Source of the DNA: Pseudomonas bijieensis
GTDB lineage: Bacteria > Pseudomonadota > Gammaproteobacteria > Pseudomonadales > Pseudomonadaceae
Length of the DNA stretch: 64,000 nt
Direction of reading: 5' to 3'
Assembly (NCBI RefSeq): GCF_013347965.1
Contig: NZ_CP048810.1
Coordinates: 6,633,501-6,697,500 of the forward strand
The notes under the pieces were generated by a model. The model did not search any database and had not been told where the DNA came from. It worked only from the letters and a program-made list of their open reading frames with translations. The translations under genes were made by a program, and so were the position numbers. Within the stretch, counting starts at the first letter, position 1; the number at the start of each line of letters is the position of its first letter. Below are positions 23,938 to 25,196 of the stretch, piece by piece.

Positions 23938-23962
23938 AGCCGAGACCTATCCAGGAACAACT

Positions 23963-23979
23963 GTGGGAGCAAGCTCGCT
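23963..23979. repeat. Left half of a REP palindrome split by the IS110 element
   Basis: GTGGGAGCAAGCTCGCT at 23963-23979 is cut off here. Its missing arm (CTCCCAC) is found at 25144-25150, immediately after the IS110 element. Joining the two at a shared CT gives a complete REP palindrome. A nearly identical uninterrupted site is present at 61592-61610. Confidence 0.8.
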
Positions 23980-23984
23980 TGTAT

Positions 23985-24170
23985 GTTTAGACTTGAAGGG
24001 GTGGGCGGGACTAAAAGCTCGATTCCGACTCTAGCCAGTACGGACCGTGGGAGACTTCTCGTTCCGCCCTTTCTACCTAAAGCGCCGATAAGGAATTCAT
24101 CGGTAAAACCGACGATAGAGGCAAGCCAGCGCAAAGGTAGACCCCGACAAGCACCTAAACCCTAGCTCCG
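23985..24170 (+). ncRNA. Putative IS110 bridge RNA (target- and donor-binding loops)
   Basis: Located in the left-end noncoding region, where IS621-group elements encode bridge RNA. AAGCTCG at 24015-24021 is identical to the target bases left of the CT core. GTGGGAG at 24047-24053 is the reverse complement of the core plus right target, CTCCCAC. A 7-bp stem with one bulge (TCCGACT 24024-24030 / AGTACGGA 24037-24044) closes the loop between them. A second hairpin CCGAT/ATCGG lies at 24085-24103. Weaker donor guides may be ATAGA at 24115 and ACAAG at 24147. This is inference from sequence plus the published IS621 mechanism. Confidence 0.55.
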
Positions 24171-24180
24171 AGGATTCGTC

Positions 24181-25140
24181 ATGACAATCCTTAACTCACC
24201 AACGGTTATTGGTATCGATGTAGCGAAGGCCGAAATCGTCGTTTACCGCGAAGACCTGAAAATCACTCAAGCCATCGCCAACCACCGCGAAGCTCTTGGC
24301 CGGTGGCTCAAAACGCTACCAGCCCAAAGCTCGATTGCGCTGGAAGCCACCAGCTTTTATCACCTGGACACAGCTGAGCTGGCCCATGGAATGGGGTTTC
24401 ATGTTTACGTTGTGGATCCTTATCGGGTGGCCCATTACCGTGAAAGTATTGGGCTGCGGGCTAAAACTGATCCTTGTGATGCGCGTTTGCTGGCTCGGTA
24501 TCTAACGAACGAGCAAGCAAGGCTGCGTATCTGGAGCCCACCTCCAGAAGCCTACAAAGTGTTAAAAAACCTGCTTAGAAAACGTGCGGCACTCATCAAG
24601 GCCCGCGTCAGTATCGTGCTGAGTTTTTCGAACGAACCGTGTCTGAAGGACATCTTGGCCCGGCAGTTGGAGGTCTTCAAAGAGTCCGATCAGGCCATTC
24701 AGAAACTAATGCGTGAGGCCAGCCAAGCGGCAGGGATCACTGAAAACATCAACCGCTGCAAAGCCATCGAAGGGATTGGTGAACTGACGGCCATTGGCTT
24801 GGCGACCGCATTCATGCGCGGTCACTTTGTCAGTGGCGATGCATTCATTGCTTTCTTGGGGATGGATTTGCGTCCAAAAGATTCAGGAAGAAGCACAGTC
24901 CTCGTCACTTGAGCAAAAAGGGACGGGGAGCTACGACGCCTGGCGCACAACGCCGCGATGGCGGCCTGTCGGTCTCCTGCCTGGAAACCTTACTATGAGG
25001 CCTTCTTGGCACGAGGCCTGGCCAGAACTCAGGCCTTGGTTATCCTCGCCCGCAAGTTGTGTCGGGTAGCATTCGCCCTGATGAAAAATCAGAGCGAATA
25101 CCAACCAAATTCACGGTTGCAGGGTTCCCCTGCAACATAG
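24181..25140 (+). pseudogene. IS110 family transposase, disrupted by compensating indels
   Basis: The first 243 codons carry the full DEDD catalytic set, Asp13 (GIDVAK), Glu55 (ALEATS), Asp97 and Asp100 (KTDPCDA), and most of the C-terminal domain up to FLGMDLRPKDSGR. A stop at 24910 then interrupts the frame, while GELRRLAHNAAM and FALMKNQSEYQP resume in the same frame to 25140. The bases between read RHLSKKG in a shifted frame, so one small deletion near 24886 and a second near 24922 best explain it. The serine-containing region is hit, so this copy is probably inactive unless rescued in trans. Confidence 0.82.
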
Positions 25141-25196
25141 AATCTCCCACACCTGATCTCTGGTGTACGCAACCCCTGTGTCCACCGCCAACCCTT

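Follow-up and report, generated by a model that had tools for sequence, protein, structure and literature searches.

Natural insertion sites argue for guide-directed insertion of an IS621-like IS110 element into Pseudomonas REP sequences

Bridge RNA in the IS110 family, family-wide covariation of its guides with their targets, and a structure have been published, with the mechanism dated 2024 (accessible parts of PMC11208160 and PMC11208158). As far as these parts describe IS621 of E. coli, the element studied here resembles it in having an IS110-type DEDD recombinase, a non-coding left end, a CT core and a REP target, with a left guide equal to the left target and a right guide complementary to the core and right target, the two guides lying in a single loop that surrounds a stem. 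It differs from IS621 in host, REP, guides, left-end length and stem sequences, and the two recombinases are related but not close. In Pseudomonas putida, all seven copies each of the IS110-family elements ISPpu9 and ISPpu10 lie inside REPs (PMC1525189). The present element is like them, by description, as an IS110-family element found only inside Pseudomonas REPs; the accessible text of that report, however, predates bridge RNAs and names no guides. The available text of PMC11187229 describes a seekRNA for ISEc21 and ISPa11, an RNA from the non-coding region that matches each target strand over a short stretch. P. aeruginosa REPs are the target of ISPa11, and the same text places the IS110-type region upstream of the gene, as here, whereas ISPa11 itself is of the IS1111 type, with the region downstream and with sub-terminal inverted repeats. 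REP insertion by IS110 elements, bridge RNA and seekRNA are known already from these sources, and what is new is a further IS621-like example. Among the titles and abstract openings of open-licence PMC papers, none concerned guide choice among REP variants within Pseudomonas genomes, and none described solo left ends.

The element lies in a 64,000-nucleotide stretch of the Pseudomonas bijieensis contig NZ_CP048810.1 (the window, to which all coordinates refer), with the following features.
23961..23979, forward strand: left half of the interrupted REP, read from the sequence, with left target AAGCTCG at 23971-23977 and core CT at 23978-23979
23980..25145, forward strand: IS110-group element of 1166 bp (right CT core included), with ends common to seven copies
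24181..24912, forward strand: transposase (recombinase) gene, an open reading frame with Pfam PF01548 and PF02371, its frame broken after 243 aa
25109..25143, no strand: hairpin (inverted repeat) at the right end, with 16-nt arms that are 81% complementary
25144..25150, forward strand: right core CT and right target CCCAC, read from the sequence and identical in 7/7 copies

The original prediction placed an IS110 element at a shared CT inside a perfect REP palindrome. The placement was borne out, since seven copies in the window's genome (G000) confirmed the ends and the core; the palindrome proved slightly less regular. The left flank ends in GTGGGAGCAAGCTCG-CT (core 23978-23979), the element reads TGTATG...ATAGAAT-CT (second core 25144-25145), and CCCACA follows. 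Collapse at the CT rebuilds the REP as GTGGGAGCAAGCTCGCTCCCAC, which is near-perfect, with 10 of 11 positions paired and one A/C mismatch. As expected of the IS110 group, the non-coding region comprises 201 bases upstream of the start codon and the right end is short. Features of the IS1111 group were not seen, as the long non-coding end is upstream and no inverted pair of at least 12 nt linking both ends was among those listed.

The seven copies in G000 share 99-100% identity and identical ends, and each occupies a different REP flank. Their target reads AAGCTCG-CT-CCCACA at six sites and AGGCTCG-CT-CCCACA at one. An open frame of 320 aa is present in one sibling (L005); the other six copies, including the window copy (L001), are interrupted. 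The copies differ mainly by indels in homopolymer runs, which could be either real or assembly errors. L001 and L002 are identical, so that one frame-broken allele occupies two REPs; movement in trans, conversion and a consistent assembly error are possible sources of this identity. Plasmids searched for near matches to the intact sibling yielded none.

Domains PF01548 (DEDD_Tnp_IS110) and PF02371 (Transposase_20) were detected above cut-off in both the window product and L005, the IS110-group combination of a DEDD (RuvC-like) domain and a Tnp domain with a conserved serine. Sequence relatives of the recombinase include the recombinases of ISCro4 (9t56, E 2.2e-22) and IS621 (8wt6, E 9.7e-21), both of solved structure. 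Residues D13, E55, D97, D100 and S235 were invariant in 12 relatives and are taken, by motif, as the counterparts of D11, E60, D102, D105 and S241 of IS621. The window product ends at residue 243, and a full-length recombinase is probably not made from this copy, which may have moved by means of a sibling copy's protein.

The left non-coding end contains the segments on which the guide reading depends.
23980..24180, forward strand: left non-coding end, the proposed bridge RNA region, conserved in relatives with variable guide segments
24003..24011, forward strand: outer stem enclosing the target loop, 5' arm (element nt 24-32), which pairs with nt 82-92 at a probability of 0.99-1.0
24015..24021, forward strand: left target guide AAGCTCG, equal to the left target and showing position-specific covariation
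24024..24044, forward strand: inner stem-loop TCCG...CGGA between the guides
24047..24053, forward strand: right target guide GTGGGAG, reverse-complementary to CTCCCAC (core and right target together)
24061..24069, forward strand: outer stem, 3' arm (element nt 82-90)

Both guide identities, as proposed from the letters alone, are exact, and the stem-loop expected between them was found at 24024-24044. When the 201-nt left end was put through 100,000 dinucleotide shuffles, the two 7-mers turned up in the given order 14 times; the covariation and within-genome tests described below are much stronger than this shuffle test. The further expectation that both segments share one internal loop held in part. 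The outer stem (24003-24011 with 24061-24069) encloses both guides, and the inner stem stands between them, which gives the bridge-RNA arrangement of two target guides in one internal loop addressing both strands around the core. For the window RNA folded alone, the prediction is instead that six bases of the left guide pair with the right-guide region, each with a probability of 0.84-0.99, whereas in the consensus from 33 aligned left ends the left guide is free. The left end of the window copy folds only moderately stably for its composition (energy z -1.97). Among 39 distinct arm pairs, outer arms from the same element paired over 10.8 bases on average, against 9.2 when arms were swapped (0 of 2000 swaps reached the observed mean). 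This swapped-arm measure replaced stem-pair counts on a MAFFT alignment, in which two stem types are offset from each other by about two bases. The flag for guide/stem layout is built in by the search ranges, and weight was placed only on the stem lengths. A search of the window with Rfam 15 at the gathering threshold gave no match, which was not counted against membership among bridge RNAs.

Candidates for the donor side are weaker.
24115..24119, forward strand: candidate left donor guide ATAGA, equal to five bases of the right end ATAGAAT
24147..24151, forward strand: candidate right donor guide ACAAG, weak, its CAAG being complementary to core CT plus left-end TG

These were described from the start as weak matches, and they cover 4-5 bases only, so that donor pairing, set beside that in the accessible accounts of IS621, is a candidate. 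The donor ends are almost invariant across relatives and so offer no covariation. The segments CTTG..GGGGT and ACCCC..CAAG (23992-24002 and 24139-24151) pair with a probability near 1 for most bases; in the predicted fold this helix may be what closes the RNA, or a competitor of donor pairing.

Of 249 Pseudomonas genomes, 51 held a sequence matching the 201-nt left end, and further copies were added. A scan of named genomes confirmed 279 loci, of which 80 were kept. In all, 191 distinct insertions had a readable guide and left target; they represent 31 guide types from Pseudomonas, Halomonas and Natronospira. Another 36 left-end listings, in which no guide could be read, were set aside; these are solo fragments, some of them entered twice. 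Comparison of guide bases with insertion sites, the check that had been suggested, revealed covariation position by position across the 31 types: left-guide positions 1-7 each followed their own target position (z = 3.2, 3.5, 5.2, 5.4, 4.7, 6.2 and 4.8), and the largest off-diagonal z in the guide/target match matrix was 2.8. Matches numbered 183 of 217, compared with 128.3 when targets were swapped in permutations that model no tree (sd 5.5, maximum 151; 0 of 5000 reached the observed count). The commonest target agreed with the guide at 7/7 bases in 15 of the 31 types and at 6/7 in seven more. Across orthologues, the guide predicts the natural insertion site, as it does for bridge RNAs.

At the level of single insertions (189 of the 191, two being dropped for N or length), the seven bases held no mismatch in 94, one in 44, two in 13 and at least three in 38. 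The natural REP target of IS621 itself differs from its guide by one base in the accessible account, and one-base misses are therefore unsurprising here. The original prediction named relatives inserted away from their guides as evidence that would count against it. Such cases exist, namely the 38 insertions with at least three mismatches; they form a minority, and four guide types (31 of 189 insertions) need a register shift of about one base.

The right guide varies little among relatives, and 154 of 168 insertions agree with it over seven bases. All four insertions with GTAGGAG guides are at CTCCTAC; GTGGGAG guides also used seven CTCCTAC sites and one CTCTCAC site, L250 among them. Six insertions of one type disagree on the right, where the guide reading looks misplaced and one mismatch is left by eye. 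In the outgroups, the elements from Halomonas (L250 and L251) and Natronospira (L258) carry left guides of their own that match over at least seven bases; on the right side L251 and L258 match, but L250 does not.

Site choice was also compared with the supply of sites within single genomes. Empty REPs with four left variants followed by CTCCCAC were counted in 23 chosen genomes with readable copies; three genomes of shifted register were left out of the background test, as were seven insertions outside the four classes, by which G094 lost all three of its insertions. G000 holds 106 empty AAGCTCG, 777 AGGCTCG, 191 AAGCCCG and 1 AAGCCAG sites (1075 in total), and six of its seven insertions lie in AAGCTCG, the guide's own variant, which makes up about 10% of the counted sites (binomial P 6.2e-6). 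For 67 insertions in 19 genomes, REP abundance predicts 61.3 mismatches and 28 were observed (the lowest simulated value was 42; 0 of 200,000 simulations reached the observed number), and the best-matching REP class holds 53 of the 67 against 29.4 expected. The direction was the same without G379, G000 and G266 (22 mismatches, 39.9 expected); in G379 the background of CCAG sites is undercounted, as some end in CTCCTAC. Mismatches fell below the abundance expectation in 17 of the 19 genomes and above it in G138 and G111. G204 is below expectation, yet both of its copies are one base off the guide. A further idea, that guides mirror whichever REP is commonest in the host, was abandoned, as several genomes, G000 included, carry a minority-variant guide.

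The covariation of guide with target and the guide-following choice of sites against REP abundance lead us to favour guide-directed insertion by an IS621-like bridge-RNA element of the IS110 group, with a probability of roughly 93%. The same two lines support the earlier proposal that the layout is that of IS621 target guides and that an IS110 element was directed by them into REP DNA. The left non-coding end would act as a bridge RNA, transcribed as in the known family and, by analogy with the 177-nt RNA of IS621, expected to measure roughly 170-180 nt. Within one loop of this RNA, around the CT core of the REP, the left guide would pair with the bottom strand of AAGCTCG, and the top strand of CTCCCAC would be the partner of the right guide. 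The circular element would then be recombined into the CT core by a DEDD enzyme akin to the IS621 recombinase; RNA binding by this enzyme, a circular intermediate and a donor loop are all supposed from the known family.

It is very unlikely, in our judgement, that the recombinase protein or the shape of the REP hairpin selects the target and that the guide-like segments are coincidental. Every Pseudomonas target is a palindromic REP, and REP insertion was known before bridge RNAs (accessible text of PMC1525189), both of which would suit such selection; REP variants of the same shape within one genome, however, are used by guide match and not by number, and all seven positions covary in register. 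The element also keeps its preference when the host changes. Copies in G353 are 98.9-99.0% identical to L005, and AAGCTCG accounts for 929 of 1198 sites there and received eight of nine insertions. Nearly the same element (about 99% identity) has thus chosen the same variant in two hosts of opposite REP make-up (6/7 in G000, 8/9 in G353).

Copying of the REP into the left end from the flank, by capture or conversion and with no guiding, could be considered because the target and the left guide are same-strand sequence 35 bases apart. The right guide speaks against it, being a reverse complement placed separately behind the inner stem, as do the recurrence of one guide at several unrelated sites, the conservation of the sequence around the guides across types, and the multi-copy genomes examined, in which guides do not change copy by copy with the flank; we regard such copying as extremely improbable. 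Shared descent of the element and the host REPs as the mere cause of covariation is, in turn, barely conceivable. Guide types are related and the permutations carry no tree, but the background test is conditioned on each host's own REP counts. When flanks were compared, one cross-genome pair matched on both sides in the same orientation (L160/L163), and its genomes are outside that test; L179 and L183, both in G379, resemble each other in their flanks and are perhaps not independent; the result holds when G379 is left out. Two further pairs, L007/L152 and L006/L261, lie in opposite orientation in different genomes, apparently in the same intergenic region, and the left flank of one copy corresponds to its partner's right flank.

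Besides full copies, 28 solo left ends were found, in which a REP half-site, the CT and a short left end are followed by unrelated chromosome (L094, L097-L103, L105-L107, L109, L112, L133, L136, L146, L174, L185, L187, L190, L192, L193 and others). The shared left end measures 22-31 nt in 24 of the 28 and 0, 11, 17 and 36 in the other four by strict prefix count, some of these outlying lengths being due to single changes; the pattern search could show fragments from 16 nt up. Of the 79 loci where the left end was complete and no fewer than 1300 bases were available, two miss the right end, which implies that breaks are concentrated in a short stretch. Relative to the empty site in G011, the solo end in G215 has 16 bases right of the core replaced by 22, with GTGGGCG shared. 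Seven more solos were aligned to empty orthologous sites, several of them unclearly, and two others did not align across the junction. In these comparisons a short stretch right of the core is replaced, and GTGGG-type bases are shared at some junctions, with none visible at others. Solo right ends occur as well: L202, L204 and L216 keep about 10-13 nt before CT-CCCAC, beside REP or other DNA, and elsewhere right ends that lack a left partner retain some 80-110 nt. On the left, the break points are within the 5' arm of the stem of the left end; on the right, some are at the base of the hairpin there.

The replaced stretches, the shared bases at some junctions, the solo right ends and the break positions at hairpins make deletion after full insertion, linked to hairpins or microhomology, the preferred reading of the solo ends. 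The shortness of the lost flanks is not decisive, because longer deletions would enter genes. Solo left ends had at first been read as possible one-ended insertions, a reading set aside after the comparison with empty sites and the solo right ends. That they are aborted guide-directed insertions, and not remnants of full ones, is unlikely; in such an event the first strand exchange would join the target to the left end, replication or repair would then switch back to the chromosome, and a guide-addressed patch of about 25 nt would be left in place of the right half of the REP.

Other altered copies were noted. L042 (682 bp) and L043 (679 bp) in genome G046 retain both ends, including the guides on the left, but have lost most of the transposase gene, and they occupy two different AAGCTCG REPs; they probably represent a non-autonomous derivative moved in trans. 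The L037/L300 element is bordered at left and right by an identical 16-base sequence, CCCACATTTGGTAGCT, as though it belonged to a tandem arrangement.

In G000, 1075 competing REPs of four variants differ by one or a few bases, and insertions still mostly follow the guide. This amounts to a natural specificity assay of near single-base resolution that can be read from genomes alone, with the element pair of G000 and G353 as a ready comparison across opposite REP make-up. On closer study, the scars of the solo ends would show the fate of failed or decayed insertions.
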